This document shows positions 1,909 to 23,815 of a stretch of 39,460 nt of DNA, in pieces. How positions within the stretch are numbered: the first letter of the stretch is position 1; each line of letters opens with the position of its first letter. Source of the DNA: Rhodothermales bacterium (GTDB taxonomy: Bacteria; Bacteroidota; Rhodothermia; Rhodothermales; UBA10348); assembly GCA_028284865.1 (NCBI GenBank), contig JANQQV010000021.1, forward strand, positions 1-39,460, in the 5' to 3' direction. The notes under the pieces are model-generated. The model had not been told where the DNA came from, did no database searches, and was given only the letters and a program-made list of their open reading frames with translations. The position numbers and the translations under genes are program-made.

Positions 1909-4900
1909 CTACATGCTGCGACGATACTGCCCGCCAACCTCGAACAGGGCATGCGTGATGTCGCCGAGGGAGCACACGGGCACGGCATCCATGAGGGCGT
2001 CGAACGTGTTCTCGCCGGCGCGAGCGACGTCTTGCAGACGAGCGAGCGCAGCATTGCCTTCATCCGGATTCTGTCCCTGGAACGCCCGCAGATTCCGGAT
2101 CTGACGATCCTTCTCTTCTGTGGTTGAGCGCATCAAGGCGACCGGTTCGCCTTCTTCAGCATCTTCGCCTTCCGAGCGGAACGTGTTGACGCCGATCACG
2201 GGCAGCTCACCCGTGTGCTTTTTGCCTTCATAGTAGAGGCTTTCTTCCTGAATCTTGGAGCGCTGGTACATGGTCTCCATCGCGCCTAGCACACCACCGC
2301 GATCATTGATGCGTTCGAACTCCATCAGGACGGCTTCTTCAACGAGGTCAGTCAATTCGTCGATGATGTACGCGCCCTGAAGCGGGTTCTCGTTCTTCGC
2401 CAGGCCCAACTCGCGGTTGATGATGAGCTGGATGGCGATGGCGCGTCGCACGCTTTCCTCGGTCGGGGTCGTGATGGCCTCGTCGTACGCGTTGGTGTGC
2501 AACGAATTGCAGTTGTCGTAGATAGCCATCAACGCCTGCAGTGTGGTGCGGATGTCGTTGAACTGGATTTCCTGCGCGTGGAGGCTACGGCCTGAAGTCT
2601 GAATGTGGTATTTCAGCTTTTGCGACCGTTCATTGCCGCCATAGCGGTTTTTCATGGCCACAGACCAGATGCGTCGAGCCACACGGCCGATGACCGAGTA
2701 CTCGGGATCCATCCCATTCGAGAAGAAGAAGGACAGGTTCGGCGCAAAGTCATCGATGTTCATCCCGCGCGCCAGGTAGTACTCCACGAACGTGAAGCCA
2801 TTCGAGAGCGTGAAGGCCAGCTGGCTGATCGGGTTGGCGCCGGCCTCTGCAATGTGGTATCCGGAAATGGAAACCGAGTAGAAGTTGCGGACACCGTTGT
2901 CAATAAAGTACTGCTGCACGTCGCCCATCATGCGAAGGGCGAATTCGGTGGAGAAGATGCACGTGTTCTGCGCCTGGTCTTCTTTCAGGATGTCAGCCTG
3001 GACCGTGCCGCGCACCTTCTTGAGCGTGGCTTCCCGGATCGAGCGGTACGTGCCGTCATCCAGAAGCCCCCACTCGACCAGTTGAGCGCCATACGTCCCC
3101 AAGAGGCCCAAGCCGGTTCCGTCGTGGGTTTTAGGGAGGCCGGTTTCAGGGCCGGTGGGTCCGGTAGGGGAGTAGACGGGCGCATCGGGGCCAAGCTTGG
3201 CCTGGATTTTTGCGTACACATCGTCCCATGAGCCTTCAGAACGGAAGTGTCGCTCGATCTGCTGATCGACGGCCGTATTCAAGAACATGGCCAGCAGCAT
3301 CGGGGCCGGACCATTGATGGTCATAGAGACGGATGTCGAAGGATCGCAGAGGTCGAAGCCGGAATACAGCTTCTTCATATCGTCCAGCGTGCAGATCGAG
3401 ACGCCCGCGTTGCCGACCTTGCCGTAGATATCCGGCCGCTCGTGCGGATCGAAGCCGTACAGCGTGACGGAGTCGAAGGCCGTGGACAAGCGCTTGCCCG
3501 GCATGCCCTCGGAAACCAGATGGAAGCGGCGGTTCGTCCGCTCAGGGCTCCCTTCACCGGCAAACATGCGAGTCGGATCTTCGCCCGTCCGTTTGAACGG
3601 AAAGACGCCTGAGGTGAACGGGAAGAAGCCAGGCAGATTCTCCAGCAGCGCGTACCTGAGGCGCTCACCTGGATCTTCCGTGCGAGGAAGGGCGATCTTC
3701 GGGATGTTCAATCCTGACAGCGACTCTGTGTAAAGCGGCACGGTGAATTCGCGGCCGCGGACTGTATACGTGTATTCCTTGGAACGATACTGCTCGGCCA
3801 GCGCGTCCCAGCCTTCCAGAATGGCTTTGGAGCGATGATCCAGTCGGTCCCACCAGCGGGCTGCCATTTTCGTCAGGCGATCCTCCAGCAGTTCCCGATC
3901 TTCGGGATTCCACTCGGACACCTGGGACAGAGCACCGCGCGCTTCACCCCATTTGCGGGCGAACACGATTTGCTCCTCGGCACGGAACCGGTAGTCCCGG
4001 CATGTGTCGGAGATGTCGCCCAGATAGCGCTGGCGCTTGGGCGGAATCAAGGCTTCTGCATCCGATTTGAAGTCTTCGACCGGCTGCGATTCAAACGTTG
4101 CCGAGGCGCGATCGAATGCAAATCGTTCATTCAGCTCGCCCAGCATGGCCAAGTACAGATTGGTCACGCCCTGATCGTTGAAGTGCGAGGCCATGGTAGG
4201 GAAGACCGGCATCTGATCCGGAGCCGTATCCCAGGCACCTCGGTTGCGCTGCATCGTCTTGCGCACGTCCCGAAGCGCATCTTCGCTACCGCGCTTTTCG
4301 AACTTGTTGAGCGCCACGAAATCAGCCGCATCGAGCATGCCGATTTTCTCGAGCTGCGTTGGAGCACCGAATTCCTGCGTCATGACATACAACGTCAGGT
4401 CGGTCATGTCCGCGATCTCGGTGTCGCTCTGGCCGATTCCTGCCGTTTCGAGAATGATCAGGTCGAATCCGGCCGCTTTGCACACCGTGATGGCGTCACG
4501 GAGCGCCTGACTGGTCGCACGGTTGGCCTGTCGCGTGGCCAGGGAGCGCATGTAGACGCGTTCGCCAGCCGTGTCGTAGATGCTGTTCATCCGGATGCGA
4601 TCACCCAGCAAAGCGCCACCCGTGGAGCGGCGAGTGGGGTCGACCGAGAGGACCGCGATGTCCAGATCCTGGAAGTCGGTGATGAATCGTCGGACCAGTT
4701 CGTCGGTCAGGGTCGACTTGCCCGCACCGCCCGTTCCGGTGATACCGATGGTCGGGATGCTGTAGTCCATCTCCGGGGCACCATCGCCGCCGGCAGACAT
4801 CGTTTCCACTTGCGAGATCCCGCGTGCAACGATCTGTGCTTTCTCGGCGCCGTCATTCAAGTCAAGCGTGTTGACGTCGAAATCGCATTCGCGCATCATG

Positions 4901-5370
4901 AGATCAATCATGCCGCGAAGTCCGAGTTCGAGTCCGTCTTCGGGCGAAAAAATGCGCGCTACGCCGTACTCGTGGAGCTCCTGGATTTCCTCGGGGACGA
5001 TAACGCCGCCACCACCGCCATACACGCGAATATGGCCAGCTCCGCGCTCACGCAGCAAGTCGACCATGTAGCGGAAATACTCGTTGTGACCGCCCTGATA
5101 TGAGGAGACCGCGATTCCTTGGGCATCTTCATGGATGGCCGTATCGACAATCTCCTTCACGGACCGATTGTGTCCCAGATGGATGACCTCGGCACCGGCC
5201 GATTGCAGGACGCGACGCATGATGTTGATGGCTGCATCGTGACCATCGAACAGGGAAGCCGCGGTGACGAATCGAACCGGGTGCACCGGTTCGTGCCACG
5301 TTGGCGCTGCGTCAGCGGAAGCGCTTTCGGGAGCGGACGGAGAGGTGGGCTGGGCAGAAGGCGTCTGCAT
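1909..5370 (-). CDS. icmF: Fused isobutyryl-CoA mutase, IcmF
   Basis: This B12-dependent mutase interconverts isobutyryl-CoA and n-butyryl-CoA and carries its own GTPase chaperone. Numbering is from the ATG at 5370 (1153 aa). The B12-binding domain comes first, with DGHDAAIN at 42-49 and His44 as presumed cobalt ligand. The MeaB-like G domain follows, with Walker A GTGGAGKS at 212-219 and a NKFE motif. The large mutase domain is C-terminal, with [16 protein letters not shown] and [14 protein letters not shown] typical of IcmF. Two pocket residues match IcmF rather than methylmalonyl-CoA mutase: Phe590 (Tyr in MCM) and Gln801 (Arg in MCM). The frame stays open upstream to a TTG at 5415, but the added residues are Ser/Pro-rich and unconserved in type. 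It probably has its own promoter near 5506-5536. Confidence 0.96.
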
Positions 5371-5505
5371 GGAGTCGCGGGGTGAACCAGAGAATGATCC
5401 GGGATGGTTGGCCAAACAAGCGCAAGGCTCCGAGAGAGCCGACGAGCGTTTGGCAGATCCTGTAGTTACGCAGGCCGTAGATCGAGGTTTAAGAACCCCG
5501 GACGA

Positions 5506-11665: not shown

Positions 11666-12955
11666 GTGAACGTCTCGATTCCTGATTCTCTGTTTGCCCG
11701 GTTTGATCACGTTTCCAGTGTAACCGGCATCTCCCGGGATCACGCGATCTGGGTGCCGGGACGCATCGAAGTACTCGGCAAACACACGGACTACGCCGGA
11801 GGCGAAAGTCTTACCTGCGCGTCGACGCACGGCATCGCGGCACTGGTTGAGTCGCATGGAGGCGCGAGCTTGATCATCGAGGATGTCTCGCGTAATCAAC
11901 GCGTTGAGCTTCCCTATGCGGCACCCTCGCCGAAAGCATCGTGGACCCGATACCCCGCCGCAGTGCTCCAGCGAGTCATGCGGCACTTCGGCAAGCCGTC
12001 GGCCGGAATCCGATTGGCCATCCAGTCTGATCTGCCGAGCGCCTCAGGGATGAGTTCGTCGAGTGCGCTCGTGGCGACGGTTTTACTGGCCGTACTTGGA
12101 GAAGGGGAGTACGAGGAGCTGCCGTTCGCCACACGGGCCGATCTGGCCGGATTTGCAGGCGCCATCGAGTCTGGAGCTGACTGGAACGACCTGCCGGGCG
12201 ATGATGGCGTGGGGACACGCGGCGGATCGCAGGACCATACGGCGATCTTATGCGCGAAAAAGGGCATGCTGAGCTTGTTTGGCTATCACCCGATCACCTG
12301 CCACGAGCGAGTAGCACTAAGTGATTCGGTCGGGTTCGTGATTGCGGGAAGCGGTGTGAAAGCGCGCAAAACGGGTGAAGCGAAGGACCTCTACAACAGG
12401 GCAAGCAAGCGCGCCCGCGAGGTCGCTCGGCTGTATTCCGAGGATCTGGACGAGCACTATCCGAACATGGGCGCCATGATGGCGGCACCGCATTTTGATC
12501 TGGAGAGTCTTCGTTGGGCGATAACCGACGATGACCTGTGGGATCGTTTTCGCCAGTTTGAACGGGAAGTGGATCACGTTCTCCCGACGGCCGTGCGAGC
12601 GTTCGCTTCCAGCGATTGGACCGAATTGGGACCGGTGGTCGCCGAATCCCAGCAGATGGCTCAGGACTGGCTTCGAAATCAGATTCCTGAAACAAAGGCC
12701 TTGGTCGCTGCAGCGAAGAATGCCGGCGCCATCGCTGCAAGCAGCTTCGGCGCCGGATTCGGAGGAGCTGTCTGGGCCCTCGTCACGCGTGACGCGCAGG
12801 ATCGATTCAAGCGCGATTGGCAAACAGGATACGCAGCCTCTTATCCGGATCTCGCGCGCGATATGGTGATCCTGGACGATGAACCGGGAATCCCCGCATG
12901 GACATCGACACCTGGACTCCTCTCACGGCTAGACAGCCAGGCAGCTAGGCGGTAG
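11666..12955 (+). CDS. Galactokinase-like GHMP kinase
   Basis: This cytoplasmic sugar kinase has 429 residues and transfers phosphate from ATP to a sugar, probably at C1. The three GHMP motifs are present: PGRIEVLGKHTDYAGG at 31-46, LPSASGMSSSSAL at 123-135 and GAGFGG at 362-367. Arg33 and Asp190 (in GGSQDHTAI) fit the catalytic Arg and Asp of galactokinase. Lys39 stands where galactokinases have Glu, the residue that contacts the sugar C6 hydroxyl, and the usual MDQ is QDH. This variant belongs to a galactokinase-like subfamily whose substrate I do not know, so no galK symbol is given. The start is GTG 11666. It converges on the sodium:solute symporter and may serve the same sugar pathway. 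Confidence 0.85.
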   Translation: MNVSIPDSLFARFDHVSSVTGISRDHAIWVPGRIEVLGKHTDYAGGESLTCASTHGIAALVESHGGASLIIEDVSRNQRVELPYAAPSPKASWTRYPAAVLQRVMRHFGKPSAGIRLAIQSDLPSASGMSSSSALVATVLLAVLGEGEYEELPFATRADLAGFAGAIESGADWNDLPGDDGVGTRGGSQDHTAILCAKKGMLSLFGYHPITCHERVALSDSVGFVIAGSGVKARKTGEAKDLYNRASKRAREVARLYSEDLDEHYPNMGAMMAAPHFDLESLRWAITDDDLWDRFRQFEREVDHVLPTAVRAFASSDWTELGPVVAESQQMAQDWLRNQIPETKALVAAAKNAGAIAASSFGAGFGGAVWALVTRDAQDRFKRDWQTGYAASYPDLARDMVILDDEPGIPAWTSTPGLLSRLDSQAARR

Positions 12956-12990: not shown

Positions 12991-14760
12991 TCAATCGAAT
13001 CGCAGGCGCGGCCAGATGCGGGCCAGTCCGAATCCACAAGCGATGGCCAGCGTGCCGACGATCAGAGCCGGCGCCATCTTTCCATACAGCGTGTACCCGG
13101 TCGCAAACAGGGCCCCGTAGATCAGACCCGCCCCCAGAACCATGCCGAGCACGGCCAGCGGGAAGTCAGACCCATCTTCGCCAGCATCAGCTCCAACAGC
13201 CGTGGCTACTTTCGTCCATCCTTTGCCTCCAGGGCGAATCTTCGTGTAGAAAGACTTCAGGGTTTCCTCGTCGGTTGACGGGAATAGGAAGGCGGCGCTG
13301 ACCCAGGCAATCGTTGTCACAACGACGCCGACAAGCAGCTGCTGCCAGCCTTCGAGTCCCATGCCTCCGGTGAACGTGAAGATCAGGGCGATGGCAAAAG
13401 AAACAATCATCGCCGTGAGCTCGGCTTCGGCATTAATGCGCCACCAGAACCAGCGAAGAATGAAGATGAGACCCGTGCCCGCACCGATTTGTAGAATGAT
13501 GTTGAACACCTGCAGCGCATTCTCCAGGAAGAGCGCGAGGGTACAGGCGATGATCATCAAAACCACCGTGGCGACGCGGCCGGCCCAGACCTGTTCGCCC
13601 TCGGTGGCTTGCGGGTTAACAAACCGGTGATAGAGATCATTCACGATGATCGACGATCCCCAGTTCACCTGGGACGACATCGTGGACATGTACGCGGCCG
13701 CCAATGAAGTAACCACGAGGCCCAGCAATCCTGCAGGGAGATAGGTCAGCATGGCTGGGTAGGCGAGGTCATTGCGTACGACTTGCTCGGGGACATGCGG
13801 GAATCGCTCGGCAATGGACGCCAGGTCCGGAAAGACCACAAGCGAAGCCAGTGCGACCAGAATCCAGGGCCAGGGCCGCAGGGCATAGTGCAGGACATTG
13901 AAGAGTAGCGTGGCGCTGGCCGCTTCCCGTTCGTTGCGGGCCGACAGCATACGCTGGGCCAGATAGCCGCCACCGCCTGGCTCGGATCCGGGGTAATAGG
14001 CCGCCCACCACTGGACGGCGATCGGAATCAGGAAAACCGGAACGAGTGTCTCCCAGATGTCCTCGGTGAACGACGGCAGCAGGTTCAACGAGCCCTGGAC
14101 GTTCTCGTGGCTCAGCATCTGTCCCAGACCGCCGACTTCCGGCAGGTTGAGCACGTAGATGGTCGCCCAGATACTGCCGATCATGGCCATCGCGAATTGG
14201 ATCATGTCCGTCAGGACGACTCCGCGTAGTCCTCCGAGCGCCGAATAGACCATCGTGATCGTGGCCGCGATGACCACGGTTTCCAGAGGACTCCAGCCCA
14301 TCATCACGCTGCCAATCTTGATGGCGGCCAGCGTCACGGAGGCCATGATGATGATGTTGAACACGATCCCCAGATACACGGCACGGAAGCCACGCAGGAA
14401 GGCGGCCACCGGCCCGGAGTAGCGGATTTCGTAAAACTCGACGTCCGTGAGCACTCCCGAGCGACGCCACAGACGTGCATACAGGAAGACGGTCAGCATC
14501 CCGGTCAGCAAGAAGGCCCACCAGGTCCAGTTTCCATCCACGCCGCCGCCGCGCACGATGTCCGTGACCAGGTTTGGCGTGTCGGTCGAGAAGGTGGTCG
14601 CCACCATCGAAATCCCCAGAAACCACCAGGGCATGGATTGGCCGGCCAGGAAGAAGGAGCGGAAACTGGTGCCGGAACGACGGGAAACGGACAGCCCGAT
14701 AATCAGGGAAACGGCAAAGAAGCCGCCCATGATGAGCCAGTCGAGAGTGGAGAGCTGCAT
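12991..14760 (-). CDS. Sodium:solute symporter (SSS family)
   Basis: This inner-membrane transporter couples sodium entry to uptake of a solute, often a sugar, amino sugar or organic acid. With the start at ATG 14760 (MQLSTLDWLI) it has 589 residues and about 13-15 helices. Family signs are FFLAGQSMPWWFLGISMVATTFSTDTP near the N-terminus, a conserved SALGGLRGVVLTD and AAYMSTMSSQVNWGSS. Longer starts (ATG 14799, TTG 14811) add a Pro-rich tail unlike the family. It is divergent from the GH109-type gene with 103 bases between starts, a common arrangement for shared regulation. The substrate is inferred only from its neighbours. Confidence 0.93.
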   Translation of the reverse strand: MQLSTLDWLIMGGFFAVSLIIGLSVSRRSGTSFRSFFLAGQSMPWWFLGISMVATTFSTDTPNLVTDIVRGGGVDGNWTWWAFLLTGMLTVFLYARLWRRSGVLTDVEFYEIRYSGPVAAFLRGFRAVYLGIVFNIIIMASVTLAAIKIGSVMMGWSPLETVVIAATITMVYSALGGLRGVVLTDMIQFAMAMIGSIWATIYVLNLPEVGGLGQMLSHENVQGSLNLLPSFTEDIWETLVPVFLIPIAVQWWAAYYPGSEPGGGGYLAQRMLSARNEREAASATLLFNVLHYALRPWPWILVALASLVVFPDLASIAERFPHVPEQVVRNDLAYPAMLTYLPAGLLGLVVTSLAAAYMSTMSSQVNWGSSIIVNDLYHRFVNPQATEGEQVWAGRVATVVLMIIACTLALFLENALQVFNIILQIGAGTGLIFILRWFWWRINAEAELTAMIVSFAIALIFTFTGGMGLEGWQQLLVGVVVTTIAWVSAAFLFPSTDEETLKSFYTKIRPGGKGWTKVATAVGADAGEDGSDFPLAVLGMVLGAGLIYGALFATGYTLYGKMAPALIVGTLAIACGFGLARIWPRLRFD

Positions 14761-14863
14761 GGGTGCGGGTTGGGTTGAAGGCGGCGGCAATGTAGGCATT
14801 GAGAACAACAAGGCGTCCCCCTAACTTGCGCACGCCCCAACCACGACCACAGCATCGGAGATC

Positions 14864-16246
14864 ATGAAACGACGCAACTTCCTTCGCGCAGGCGCCCTGG
14901 CAGGCGTTGGTGCCACCGTCGGCAAAGGAGAGGCCCTCGCCAAGAATGTCGAGTCCAAAGCCGCGGCCATTTTGACCGGCAAGGACGATCAGACCGCGCG
15001 GATCGGCTTCATCGGTGTGGGTCTTCGGGGGCGCAATCACCTGAACATCATCCTGCGTCGCGATGACTGCCAGGTCACGGCAATCTGTGACATCGACCCG
15101 GATGCCTTGGCGCAGTCCCAGAAGATGATCAGCGATTTCGGGAAGCCGGCTGCCGCAGAGTACACTGGCAGCGAGACCGCCTATCAGCAAATGCTCGAGC
15201 GGGATGACATCGACGGCGTGTTCATTTCGACGCCGTGGCTGTGGCACACGCGCATGGCCGTGGACACGATGAAGGCGGGCAAATACGCGGGCGTGGAAGT
15301 ATCGGCGGCCAATACGATCGAAGAGTGCTGGGATCTGGTGAACACGTATGAGGAGACCGGCAAGCCGTGCATGATCCTGGAGAACGTGAACTATCGGCGG
15401 GACGTGATGGCCATCCTGAACATGGTCCGCGAAGGCCTGTTCGGCGAGATGATCCATCTCGAATGTGGTTATCAGCATGATCTCCGCGCCGTCAAGTTCA
15501 ACAACGGAAAGCAGCCATACGGCGGGGGCGTTGAGTTTGGAGAGAATGCGTTCTCCGAGGCCAAATGGCGCACCCACCACTCTGTCCATCGCAACGGCGA
15601 TCTGTATCCGACGCACGGAATTGGTCCCGTCGCCGTCTACACGGACATCAACCGGGGTAATCGCTTTGTGTCGCTGACATCAACTGCTTCCAAAGCGCGG
15701 GGACTGCACAACTACATCGTGGATCAGGCCGGCGAAGATCATCCGAACGCGGACGTCGAATTCAAGCTCGGCGATGTGATCACAACCGTCATTCGAACCC
15801 AGAACGGGGAGTCCATCATTGTCAGCCACGATACGAATCTCCCTCGCCCGTATTCGCTCGGATTCAGGGTGCAAGGGGAGAAGGGCATCTGGATGGATGT
15901 CAACCGGTCGCTGATGATTCAAGGGGTGACTCCCGATCACCAGTGGACACCGGCAGCGGAGTTTCTCGAGCAGTTTGATCACCCGCTTTGGAAGAAATAC
16001 GCCGAAAGGGCAACGGGATCGGGACACGGCGGCATGGACTTCTTCGTGGACCACGCATTCGTCGAGTCGATCAAACGAGGAGTGGATACGCCACTGGATG
16101 CCTACGACGCGGCAGCCTGGAGCGCCATCACTCCGCTGTCCGAAGCCTCAATCGCCGCAGGAAGCGCTCCACAAGCCTTCCCGGATTTCACGCGCGGCCA
16201 GTGGATGAAACGCAAACCGGTATTTGCGCTTGGCGACGACTATTGA
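14864..16246 (+). CDS. Tat-exported Gfo/Idh/MocA protein, GH109-like
   Basis: This protein of 460 residues belongs to the NAD-binding oxidoreductase fold and resembles glycoside hydrolase family 109, which cleaves alpha-N-acetylgalactosaminides by an NAD-dependent redox mechanism. The N-terminus is a Tat signal (MKRRNFLRAGALAG), implying export of the folded protein with its cofactor. The nucleotide-binding strand is IGFIGVGLRGRNHL (about 47-60), followed by ICDIDPD. NVNYRRDVMAILNMV and NGDLYPTHGIGPVAVY are typical of GH109-type members. ATG 14864 directly gives the Tat signal. It is divergent from the sodium:solute symporter, and its end overlaps the pabBC start by 23 bases. GH109-like annotation is often wider than proven activity, so the exact substrate is open. 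Confidence 0.88.
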   Translation: MKRRNFLRAGALAGVGATVGKGEALAKNVESKAAAILTGKDDQTARIGFIGVGLRGRNHLNIILRRDDCQVTAICDIDPDALAQSQKMISDFGKPAAAEYTGSETAYQQMLERDDIDGVFISTPWLWHTRMAVDTMKAGKYAGVEVSAANTIEECWDLVNTYEETGKPCMILENVNYRRDVMAILNMVREGLFGEMIHLECGYQHDLRAVKFNNGKQPYGGGVEFGENAFSEAKWRTHHSVHRNGDLYPTHGIGPVAVYTDINRGNRFVSLTSTASKARGLHNYIVDQAGEDHPNADVEFKLGDVITTVIRTQNGESIIVSHDTNLPRPYSLGFRVQGEKGIWMDVNRSLMIQGVTPDHQWTPAAEFLEQFDHPLWKKYAERATGSGHGGMDFFVDHAFVESIKRGVDTPLDAYDAAAWSAITPLSEASIAAGSAPQAFPDFTRGQWMKRKPVFALGDDY

Positions 16247-18143
16247 TCGGACCCACATTTCGGCCGACCTGGATCGGATTCTGAATCAGCCGGGTGCTGT
16301 GTTGCTGGATGGAGCCGGGGGGCGACCAGGATCGCGATCACTGCTGTTTCACGATCCCATTCGGATCCTGCAAGCGAGAACGGCCGGCGAGCTGGCATCG
16401 GTCCTCGAACTCGTCGAAAAAGCGACTGCCGACCGTCTGCATGTAGCGGGTTTCCTGTCTTATGAAGCAGGCCACGCCTTCTGGGAAGAGCGTTTTCCGG
16501 AATTGCGTACCGATCAGGCACTTCCCGCCGGGGTGCCGTTGGCTTGGTTCGGGGTATACGCGGACATGATGCCCGTTCCCAGTGATGCGTTGGCACAGTG
16601 GGCGTCGTCTGGGGCGGCTTCGACAATTCCAGATATCGGTCCAAGTGAATCGCCGGATGCATTCAAACAACGGGTCGTGGACATCCGGGACCTGATCCAC
16701 GAAGGCGATGTCTACCAGGTCAATCATACCACCCGATTCACCGCGCCGTTTTCTGGTGATCCCATCGCTTTGTACCGAGCGGTTCGGGCGCGGCAGCCTG
16801 TTGGATATGGCGGGATCCTTCGAACGGGATCAGCGACCGTGCTCTCGTTTTCTCCTGAGCTGTTCTTCGAACAATCGGGGCGGGTGATTGAGGCCGAGCC
16901 GATGAAGGGAACGGCGCCCAGGGGCGGTACGCCCGAACAGGACCAACACCTGCAGTCTTGGCTGCAGACGGATGAAAAGAATCGGGCGGAAAATCTGATG
17001 ATTGTTGATCTGCTGCGGAATGATCTTTCGATGATCAGTGAACCGGGCAGTGTGGTTGTGCCCGAGCAGTTTTGCGTGCAGCAGCTGCCCAGCGTTCATC
17101 AAATGACGTCGCGCGTTCGGGCCGAGTTGCAGCCTGGAACTGGATTTCCGGCCATCATTCGTGCTCTTTTTCCGTGTGGCTCGATCACGGGTGCTCCGAA
17201 AGTCAGAGCGATGCGCCGGATTGCCGAGCTGGAATCCGGGCCACGCGGTGTGTATTGCGGAGCGATTGGATATGTGACCGGAGTCGGCGCCGAGCGTCGG
17301 TCCGTGTTTTCGGTGGCCATCCGGACGGCTGTGCTCGACGGCACGGACCTGACGCTCGGCGCCGGTGGCGGTATTGTCTGGGATTCCGATCCGGATGAGG
17401 AATACCGTGAAATGCTGCTCAAAACGCGCTTTTTCTCCTCCCAACCCACCACAGACCGTCTCCAGCTGATCGAAACGATGCGCGCCACGCCGGACGGCCA
17501 GATTTCCTGGCTCTCCTGGCACATGGATCGGATGCATGGCTCGGCGACCGAATTGGGATTTGTCTTCGATCGCGTGACCATCGAGCAGTCCGTCAACGAG
17601 AAGCTGGTGGAAGCAGCGGCAGAAGGGATGCCAGCGGCCGATTCGGGGTCAGCGGATCCTTCTGAAACGGGCACGGACGGAGGCTTTCGTGTGCGGTTGT
17701 TGCTGGATCAGGAAGGCAATCATTCGATTGAGCTGGCGCCGCTCCAGGATCCAGGCAAAGGACCGCTTCCAGTTTGCATGACCGACGTCCGTATTGCTTC
17801 GACACATCCGAGATATCGGCACAAAACCACCGATCGCGGACCGTACGATGAGGCCAGATCTCAGGCTCAAGAAGCCGGCTGCTACGACGGGCTGCTCATC
17901 AACGAGCGGGGAGAGGTCACGGAAGGCGCAATCACCAACATCTTTGTGCGCAAAGGCGCGGATTGGTTCACGCCGCCACTTCCCAGCGGACTATTGGCCG
18001 GTGTTGGCCGACGCGTCTTCTTGCTCGAGCATGCAGCGAAAGAACGCGTGCTCACACCGCGAGACATTCGAGAGGCAGACGAGATCAGAATCACCAATGC
18101 CGTCATCGGGGAGCGTGTGGCCGTTCTTCAAGAGCGCGACTAG
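16224..18143 (+). CDS. pabBC: Fused aminodeoxychorismate synthase I / lyase
   Basis: This bifunctional folate-pathway enzyme has 639 residues. The N-terminal two thirds is PabB: chorismate plus ammonia gives aminodeoxychorismate, with PMKGT at 226-230 holding Lys228 and DEKNRAENLMIVDLLRNDL-type residues at 250-268, plus CGSITGAPK. The C-terminal part, from about residue 415, is a PabC-like class IV aminotransferase fold: LIETMRA, HKTTDRGPYDEAR with the likely PLP lysine, and GLLINERGEVTEGAITNIF. It releases p-aminobenzoate. The start is a TTG at 16224 inside the end of the GH109-type gene; another TTG follows at 16230 and no ATG lies nearby. The amidotransferase PabA is not in the window. Confidence 0.93.
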   Translation: MRLATTIDRTHISADLDRILNQPGAVLLDGAGGRPGSRSLLFHDPIRILQARTAGELASVLELVEKATADRLHVAGFLSYEAGHAFWEERFPELRTDQALPAGVPLAWFGVYADMMPVPSDALAQWASSGAASTIPDIGPSESPDAFKQRVVDIRDLIHEGDVYQVNHTTRFTAPFSGDPIALYRAVRARQPVGYGGILRTGSATVLSFSPELFFEQSGRVIEAEPMKGTAPRGGTPEQDQHLQSWLQTDEKNRAENLMIVDLLRNDLSMISEPGSVVVPEQFCVQQLPSVHQMTSRVRAELQPGTGFPAIIRALFPCGSITGAPKVRAMRRIAELESGPRGVYCGAIGYVTGVGAERRSVFSVAIRTAVLDGTDLTLGAGGGIVWDSDPDEEYREMLLKTRFFSSQPTTDRLQLIETMRATPDGQISWLSWHMDRMHGSATELGFVFDRVTIEQSVNEKLVEAAAEGMPAADSGSADPSETGTDGGFRVRLLLDQEGNHSIELAPLQDPGKGPLPVCMTDVRIASTHPRYRHKTTDRGPYDEARSQAQEAGCYDGLLINERGEVTEGAITNIFVRKGADWFTPPLPSGLLAGVGRRVFLLEHAAKERVLTPRDIREADEIRITNAVIGERVAVLQERD

Positions 18144-22858: not shown

Positions 22859-23785
22859 TCAACCTTCCAGGGCCCAGGAAAGAGCGCCGTTCACAGGAGG
22901 ATTGGTGAGGCGAAAGACCTGCGTTTCCGACACGCGTTCGTGGATCGCGGCTTTGAGCGCCTGTACGTAACTGGCCCGGTTGGTCAAGCCTCCCCAAACA
23001 GCGATTCGGCGCTGCTTGTGCGCCAGGTTTTCCGACAGCCGCGCGACCTGAATCGCCAGGGATGTACACTGGCGATGAATCAGAGTGCTGGCAACCTCGT
23101 CATCCTCATCGAACAGATCCAGAATGGCTGGAGCGAGGGCGGCCGCATTGAATCCTGGTCGGTAATACGTATCCAGGACGTCGGCAATCGAAGGCCGATG
23201 GATGCCCATCTGGGCAGCAATCACTCGGGAAAAACTACCCAGGGTCTGTCCTTCCAGTTCTGAAAGGACATGCTTGATGGCCGCCCTGCCCAGTTCGCTG
23301 CCACTTCCGGGATCTTCCAGTCCAGGTCCCCATCCTCCTGCGCGGACCAGCTTGCCTTCTGCGTCCAGACCGTAGCAACCGGAGCCCGTTCCTGCGATGA
23401 CCAAGATGCCTTCGTCTTCGCCGAAAGCTGCTCGCAGCGCGATGCGTGCATCCGAAGTGACGATAATCTGCTCTGGCGCGAGGTCGAGCGCTGATGCAAG
23501 CGCCTGCTGACAGTCTGAAGCAATCGAATCCGTCCCGGCACCAGCAGCACCCACGCAGAGTTGAACGTCGTCATGCAGATCCACATCGCCCAGGACCGCT
23601 CCGATATCCTCCGCAATGCGCTGTGCAAACGCCGCAGGCGAGGACTTGCGAAGATTGACGCTGGGTGCCTGCTGAATCGTCGTGTGCTCCCCATCACTCC
23701 AGGCCAACGACAGCCGCGTACCACCGGCATCGATGCCGATGGCTTTGCAGGTGCTGCGCGCGACGGGAGAAGAAGCTGAGGACAT
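22859..23785 (-). CDS. BadF/NagK-type ATPase, probable amino-sugar kinase
   Basis: This cytoplasmic kinase of the ASKHA fold has 308 residues from ATG 23785 (an upstream TTG at 23806 adds 7). The N-terminal phosphate loop GIDAGGTRLSLAW, the second phosphate motif VIAGTGSGCYGLD and GGWGPGLEDPGSGSELGRAAI match the BadF/BadG and N-acetylglucosamine kinase family; the adenosine motif is near AVWGGLTNRA. N-acetylglucosamine is the commonest substrate of this branch, but glucosamine is also possible. It is the last gene of a minus-strand run of PolX-like, acylase-like and kinase genes, with a 30-base gap before it. A role in cell-wall sugar recycling would be an inference. Confidence 0.85.
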   Translation of the reverse strand: MSSASSPVARSTCKAIGIDAGGTRLSLAWSDGEHTTIQQAPSVNLRKSSPAAFAQRIAEDIGAVLGDVDLHDDVQLCVGAAGAGTDSIASDCQQALASALDLAPEQIIVTSDARIALRAAFGEDEGILVIAGTGSGCYGLDAEGKLVRAGGWGPGLEDPGSGSELGRAAIKHVLSELEGQTLGSFSRVIAAQMGIHRPSIADVLDTYYRPGFNAAALAPAILDLFDEDDEVASTLIHRQCTSLAIQVARLSENLAHKQRRIAVWGGLTNRASYVQALKAAIHERVSETQVFRLTNPPVNGALSWALEG

Positions 23786-23815
23786 GGGTCTCGATTCGGG
23801 TGGCAAGCGATCAGA

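Follow-up and report, generated by a model that had tools for sequence, protein, structure and literature searches.

Which sugar is phosphorylated by a galactokinase-like enzyme that carries lysine in place of the glutamate of the GEHTDY motif? The question is raised by one gene in a Rhodothermales bacterium contig (JANQQV010000021.1), of which the whole stretch of 39,460 nucleotides was analysed and is called the window here. The features of the window that bear on the question are given below.

11666-12955, forward strand: GHMP sugar kinase of the GKHTDY subfamily, predicted GalNAc/HexNAc 1-kinase (Pfam, AlphaFold2, fold comparison, tree)
11777-11803, forward strand: motif 1, GKHTDYAGG, residues 38-46 of the kinase (sequence, alignment)
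12215-12238, forward strand: T184-x-G-G-S-Q-D-H191, the opened loop ahead of the catalytic Asp190 (comparison with GALK2 and canonical rows)
12368-12370, forward strand: Lys235 (alignment columns, comparison with GALK2)
12991-14811, reverse strand: SGLT-like sodium:solute symporter of 606 aa, likely for sugar uptake (PF00474, PDB match)
14864-16246, forward strand: GH109 glycosidase of 460 aa with a twin-arginine-like N-terminus, RRNFLRAG (PF21252, 292.9 bits)

The kinase gene starts with GTG and encodes 429 amino acids, the stop codon being counted in its coordinates. Motif 1 reads PGRIEVLGKHTDYAGG, with the Lys39 codon AAA at 11780-11782, and just ahead of it Glu35 (11768-11770) stands where canonical galactokinases have Asn. 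Residues 186-191 are GGSQDH, which gives a catalytic-Asp motif of S-Q-D-H versus I-M-D-Q. The pair of signatures expected of a galactokinase, Glu in GEHxDY and M-D-Q, is thus replaced by Lys39 and Q-D-H, and the initial annotation had read both replacements correctly from the sequence. The Pfam domains GHMP_kinases_N (PF00288), GHMP_kinases_C (PF08544) and GalKase_gal_bdg (PF10509) were all found above their cut-offs. An AlphaFold2 model obtained from an 80-row alignment had a pLDDT of 94.8, and its comparison by VIA gave Z values of 42.7 with human GALK1 and 40.2 with human GALK2; the modelled protein has the galactokinase fold, which together with the three domains places it in the galactokinase superfamily. 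None of the NCBIfam models reached its cut-off on this protein and the galactokinase models fell well short, TIGR00131 (galactokinase equivalog, EC 2.7.1.6) scoring 92.3 bits with a cut-off of 226.65. The plasmid collection gave no match. The exact string GKHTDYAGG had no match in a literature search whose coverage of subscription papers was thin, and a bacterial GalNAc kinase of GKHTDY type was absent among the matches listed in the literature searches. The missed cut-offs and the absence of the string from the searched literature are in accordance with the initial annotation, where the function had been called unsettled.

The extent of the subfamily was analysed by searching the proteins of 296 genomes from the window's phylum, a search that was free of bias towards Lys and took an E below 1e-60 as a close match. 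The search returned 11 close matches including the window's own, ten with GKH (Lys) and one with GQH (Gln). A pattern scan of named genome contigs gave 421 loci, and the best 80 of these are assigned by their titles to Bacteroidota, Planctomycetota, Gemmatimonadota, Acidobacteriota, Actinomycetota, Marinimicrobia or unclassified bacteria, that is at least six phyla; one of the two patterns behind this set contained Lys, so the set is biased towards Lys. The 80-row alignment consists of the window protein and 79 of the 80 loci, L101 being left out for a frame error. Lys39 was present in 78 of the 78 rows with a letter at that position, across six phyla, the other two rows having a gap. Actinomycetota were sparse, the kinase being found in 1 of 198 genomes of a Cutibacterium's phylum, namely the centre genome itself. 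A maximum-likelihood tree of 76 rows, calculated without the GALK2 sequence, split off 47 GKH rows and 1 GQH row, at 100/100 support, from the other 28 (25 GEH, 3 GNH). The tree has a midpoint root and long branches, and the GNH row L122 is a possible long-branch join, so it shows separation and not which form is older. The GKHTDY kinases, characterised by Glu35 with Lys39 and forming a single clade apart from the GEH and GNH kinases, are on these alignments a coherent subfamily in which Lys39 is no chance substitution; a coherent subfamily had also been suggested by the initial annotation. The GQH relative inside the clade (L013, genome G183, of the window's own family) reads GQHVDYAGG in a PGRIELIGQH context and still has a GH109 gene 5.6 kb off; its Gln is apparently a secondary loss of Lys39 within the clade. 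The neighbours of this relative and of two others (L137-L139) gave nothing further for or against a GalNAc substrate.

The separate clade also bears on whether the protein is simply a second, divergent galactokinase. The shared fold, with GALK1 as the nearer of the two human enzymes in the VIA comparison, and the same catalytic residues agree with such a role, and SGLT-like transporters of the kind encoded beside the kinase carry galactose. Against it stand the 100/100 separation in the tree and the NCBIfam galactokinase models, which remain under their cut-offs by more than half. In addition, a further PF10509 match was found in 9 of 12 checked genomes (8 over the cut-off) as well as in the window's own genome, and neither galT nor galM was seen beside the kinase in a non-systematic look at about 50 annotated neighbours. 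A divergent galactokinase is therefore improbable, and plain galactose was set aside as the main reading because of the clade, the missed cut-offs and the gene linkage.

The sugar pocket was analysed column by column using 100 family rows, at least 12 of them duplicates from genes fetched twice, against 25 canonical GEH rows. Arg33, His40, Asp42, Asp190 and Tyr243 were retained in the family rows. At position 35, each of the 98 family rows that could be read there has Glu, and the 25 canonical rows all have Asn. Position 235 is Lys in every one of the 100 family rows (duplicates counted) and in GALK2, but Leu in 24 of the 25 canonical rows. The loop ahead of the catalytic Asp read T-x-G-G-S/A-E/Q-D-H/Q in most family rows versus mostly V/A-x-C/S-G-I-M-D-Q in canonical rows (CNCGIMDQ in E. 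coli GalK), the canonical Met189 being changed to Glu or Gln. Since Asn35 to Glu, Met189 to Glu/Gln, Leu235 to Lys and the opened loop (T184, G186, S/A188) occur together, the change at position 39 is not a plain Glu-to-Lys substitution. Glu was found at 35 or at 39, never at both, in the compared family, GQH, GNH and canonical rows, an alternation that may reflect one inherited event per clade. Because Lys39 is always accompanied by Glu35, Glu/Gln189 and Lys235, a salt bridge is possible instead of an orientation towards a substrate carboxylate, and Lys39 may pair with Glu35 or Glu189.

These residues were compared with those of human GALK2, which is an N-acetylgalactosamine kinase (PDB 2a2c, 2a2d). 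GALK2 reads IGTEGGGMDQ and SCVEMNKA and thereby has T184, G186, a small residue at 188 and Lys235 in common with the GKHTDY family; at these four positions both differ from most of the 25 canonical rows. The loop of GALK2 type and Lys235 are thus both present in the window kinase, these features having been picked here by the comparison with GALK2 and not from a published definition. The Glu of GEHxDY, which GALK2 has, is replaced by Lys39 in 78 of 78 readable rows. GALK2 further differs from the family in Asn35 and MDQ, is eukaryotic and has about 22% identity to the window kinase. As GALK2 keeps Glu39 and Asn35, Lys39 is not required for GalNAc. Four positions in common are a small number, and they could reflect convergence or retained ancestry. 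Searched against the PDB, the family profile placed GALK2 on top with 129 bits, the best galactokinase reaching 118.7. A control profile of 14 canonical enzymes gave GALK2 233 bits, above yeast Gal1 (191), with the galactokinases of Lactococcus, human, Pyrococcus and Bifidobacterium (300-411 bits) all above GALK2. With a single-sequence query GALK2 and two bacterial galactokinases were tied, and VIA ranked galactokinases slightly over GALK2 for the kinase model.

Other known kinases show the position of the family more clearly. Canonical GalK/GALK1 enzymes (TIGR00131) share the fold, the PGR motif, Arg33, His40, Asp42, Asp190 and Tyr243 with it, but have Asn35/Glu39, the C-G-I-M-D-Q loop and Leu235 and lie in a separate clade. 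Bacteroides FKP (fucokinase and GDP-fucose pyrophosphorylase) has a related fold (VIA Z 27.1 to the kinase model) and likewise couples a GHMP anomeric kinase to a sugar-1-phosphate nucleotidylyltransferase; FKP is a single fused protein acting on L-fucose, whereas the GKHTDY kinase and its nucleotidylyltransferase are two genes. The bifidobacterial NahK route has an anomeric HexNAc kinase feeding UDP-HexNAc, as proposed for the GKHTDY family, although NahK is not known to have the GHMP fold.

The gene neighbourhoods of the best 80 of 421 loci were examined with genes called by a simple script and grouped by single-linkage clustering. As one or a few members per cluster were identified by family search, the locus counts should be read as approximate. 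Up to three genes away from the kinase, these best 80 of 421 loci contained the nucleotidylyltransferase in 33, the symporter in 33, a GH109-like gene in 16, a GlmM-like mutase in 10, a GH36-like gene in 5, NagB with PIG-L in 4, ROK in 3, GH20 in 2 and GalE in 2. The nucleotidylyltransferase was directly upstream of the kinase in 32 of the best 80 of 421 loci and overlapped it in 27. Members of the GalE and NagB clusters scored above NCBIfam cut-offs, and those of the GlmM-like (316 of 439 bits), NagC-like and nucleotidylyltransferase clusters below every one. None of GH109, GlmM, GH36, NagB, GH20, ROK and GalE was found in 43 of the best 80 of 421 loci, a count taken from partial annotation and short contigs. 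About 50 neighbours were annotated with Pfam or NCBIfam, and many contigs end close to the kinase.

A family of 683-733 aa (cluster 11; L085:11366-13417 and five other loci) also occurs close to the kinase, with loci from Gemmatimonadota, Acidobacteriota and one of Phycisphaerales. One scanned member had no Pfam match, and in the PDB no significant sequence match was found (best E 0.052 for one member, none with a profile at 0.01). Its low-confidence model (pLDDT 61) is similar to GH36 alpha-galactosidases and to FpGalactosaminidase at a TM of about 0.3, and the cluster may be a so far undescribed family of alpha-galactosidases or alpha-GalNAcases.

The initial annotation had proposed that Lys39 could favour a C6 carboxylate or another altered group, so that the substrate may be a uronic acid such as galacturonate or an otherwise modified sugar, and had advised a comparison of the neighbourhoods of GKHTDY homologues. 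Lys39 does occupy the position where the galactokinase Glu (Glu43 in GALK1) contacts the C6 hydroxyl, and at locus L106 a pectate lyase lies two genes upstream of the kinase and directly upstream of the nucleotidylyltransferase-kinase pair. The neighbourhood comparison, however, returned GH109, the nucleotidylyltransferase and amino-sugar genes as recurrent partners rather than uronate genes; the partners act on N-acetylhexosamines, GH109 above all, no further uronate gene was recognised among the roughly 50 annotated neighbours, and Glu35 and Glu/Gln189 could neutralise the lysine. A uronic acid substrate is thus very unlikely, and with one pectate lyase locus among those neighbours it was rejected as the main reading. 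There is likewise a small chance that the substrate is an anionic N-acetylhexosamine (6-sulfated GalNAc, N-acetylgalactosaminuronic acid), for which the invariant Lys39 with Glu35 would be the selectivity switch. The enzyme would then serve the salvage of charged amino sugars, a chemistry for which we know of no anomeric kinase.

The same partners may indicate general amino-sugar salvage, with another N-acetylhexosamine (GlcNAc, ManNAc) or galactosamine phosphorylated at C1. GH20, NagB/PIG-L and GlmM-like mutases near some members fit GlcNAc equally, a ROK regulator beside some members is weakly like NagC/Mlc (below cut-offs), and the two scanned members of the partner nucleotidylyltransferase have archaeal GlmU-type and AglF models as their nearest matches, none of which reaches its cut-off. 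Among the glycosidases, however, GH109 is linked most often, with an alpha-N-acetylgalactosaminidase as its closest characterised relative, and the kinase family has retained the galactokinase Asp42/Tyr243 pair, which presumably recognises the axial O4 in galactokinases. A substrate other than GalNAc among these amino sugars is on balance unlikely.

The linkage was analysed further in whole genomes. Of 60 genomes from the window's order, Rhodothermales, 22 had the kinase (best match over 390 bits), two genomes at about 107 bits not being counted. GH109 was present in 17 of these 22 versus 4 of the 38 without the kinase (Fisher p=2.5e-7, ignoring kinship). Among the 17 genomes with both, the genes were within 11 kb on one contig in 12 (for G306, the shorter of its two kinase pieces was used), 0.95 Mb apart in one and on different contigs in four. 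The second sample comprised 101 genomes of Gemmatimonadota, the phylum of the Gemmatimonadaceae MAG with locus L066, of which 35 had the kinase. The nucleotidylyltransferase was present in 34 of the 35 versus 3 of the 66 others (Fisher 3e-22, ignoring kinship); in all 34 it shared a contig with the kinase, and in 32 it lay within 300 bp of it. GH109 was present in 28 of the 35 versus 35 of the 66 kinase-free genomes (p=0.0096, ignoring kinship) and lay within 7 kb of the kinase in 26 of those 28 (26 of all 35). As GH109 is also common in kinase-free Gemmatimonadota, its presence tells little there, and the case depends on how close the genes lie. That they are tightly linked in two separate phyla is a stronger argument than the Fisher values.

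In the window, the symporter is convergent with the kinase and has vSGLT (2xq2, E=1.5e-30) as its best PDB match. The arrangement of kinase and symporter is repeated in L033-L038 (Rhodothermales, Bacteroidetes or uncultured bacterium), L037 stopping after the symporter. Folding of the gap between the two genes was no better than that of shuffles. The GH109 gene is divergent from the symporter, and residues 43-460 of its product match the Elizabethkingia alpha-N-acetylgalactosaminidase 2ixa with E=5.4e-156 and 523 bits. The partner nucleotidylyltransferase is absent from the window's genome, where the best match was 64 bits (271-422 bits for members elsewhere), and it was found at 130 bits or more in 3 of the 60 genomes of the order. 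The genome also encodes a GH20.

Its second PF10509 galactokinase-like gene (L001, G000:C10:86718-87755) reads GNHTDYNGG with Glu35 and would represent a third motif class grouping near the canonical enzymes. Like the family, the GNHTDY paralogues (L001 and L022) have Glu35 without Glu39, as in 3 of 3 GNH rows; unlike it, they have Asn39 and LLDQ and cluster with canonical enzymes in the tree. The five scanned neighbours of L001 (L136) were a polyprenyl synthetase, FecCD, a periplasmic binding protein, a YegS/DAGK-like protein and an alpha/beta hydrolase; galT was not among these five, and a gal-operon setting for the paralogue was not found in them. Elsewhere in the window, 1909-5415 (reverse strand) encodes a 1168-aa protein in which B12-binding, MeaB-like GTPase and methylmalonyl-CoA mutase domains are fused, presumably in an IcmF-like order. 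A BadF/BadG/BcrA/BcrD-family ATPase at 22859-23806 (reverse strand), about 10 kb from the kinase, is possibly another amino-sugar kinase, the family including GlcNAc and MurNAc kinases. A chorismate-binding and class IV aminotransferase fusion at 16224-18143 (forward strand) is PabB-PabC-like, and its cluster 6 (9 loci) stays near GH109 in several Bacteroidota loci with no evident sugar link.

Taken together, the kinase is probably a GalNAc (HexNAc) 1-kinase feeding UDP-GalNAc, which offers the best explanation for the linkage to GH109 and to the nucleotidylyltransferase, the amino-sugar neighbours, the GALK2-like pocket residues and the profile ranking. Glu39 and Asn35 in GALK2, the 43 of the best 80 loci without amino-sugar clusters, the lack of a nucleotidylyltransferase in the window's own genome and the pectate lyase of L106 count against this reading. 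The analysis establishes the fold, the retained residues, the clade and the gene linkage; substrate, product and pathway direction are predicted as follows. GalNAc would be released outside the cell by the GH109 alpha-N-acetylgalactosaminidase, which is probably periplasmic, or by other glycosidases, and imported by the SGLT-like symporter. The GHMP-fold kinase would then phosphorylate GalNAc, possibly also other N-acetylhexosamines, at C1 to GalNAc-1-phosphate, with catalysis through the conserved Arg33, Asp190, His40, Asp42 and Tyr243. The enlarged T-x-G-G-S loop may give room for the 2-acetamido group, and Glu35/Lys39 would take the place of the canonical Asn/Glu pair at the C4/C6 end of the sugar. 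In many members of other phyla, the nucleotidylyltransferase encoded directly upstream would make UDP-GalNAc, which GalE may link to UDP-GlcNAc for cell-wall or energy use, and GlmM-like and NagB-like enzymes may connect the product to GlcNAc metabolism.

Family models currently recognise the GKHTDY proteins solely as distant galactokinases. If the prediction is true, a kinase family in at least six phyla would consist of GalNAc 1-kinases that often come with a nucleotidylyltransferase of their own. It would give bacteria an equivalent of the GALK2 salvage route of humans, resting on a rewired motif 1. The annotations would be corrected, and enzymes for UDP-GalNAc synthesis would be supplied. 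With the paired change N35E/E39K, the sugar selectivity of the galactokinase fold can be put to a direct test by mutagenesis, and the assignment would give a clue to how these bacteria exploit the GalNAc that GH109 sets free.
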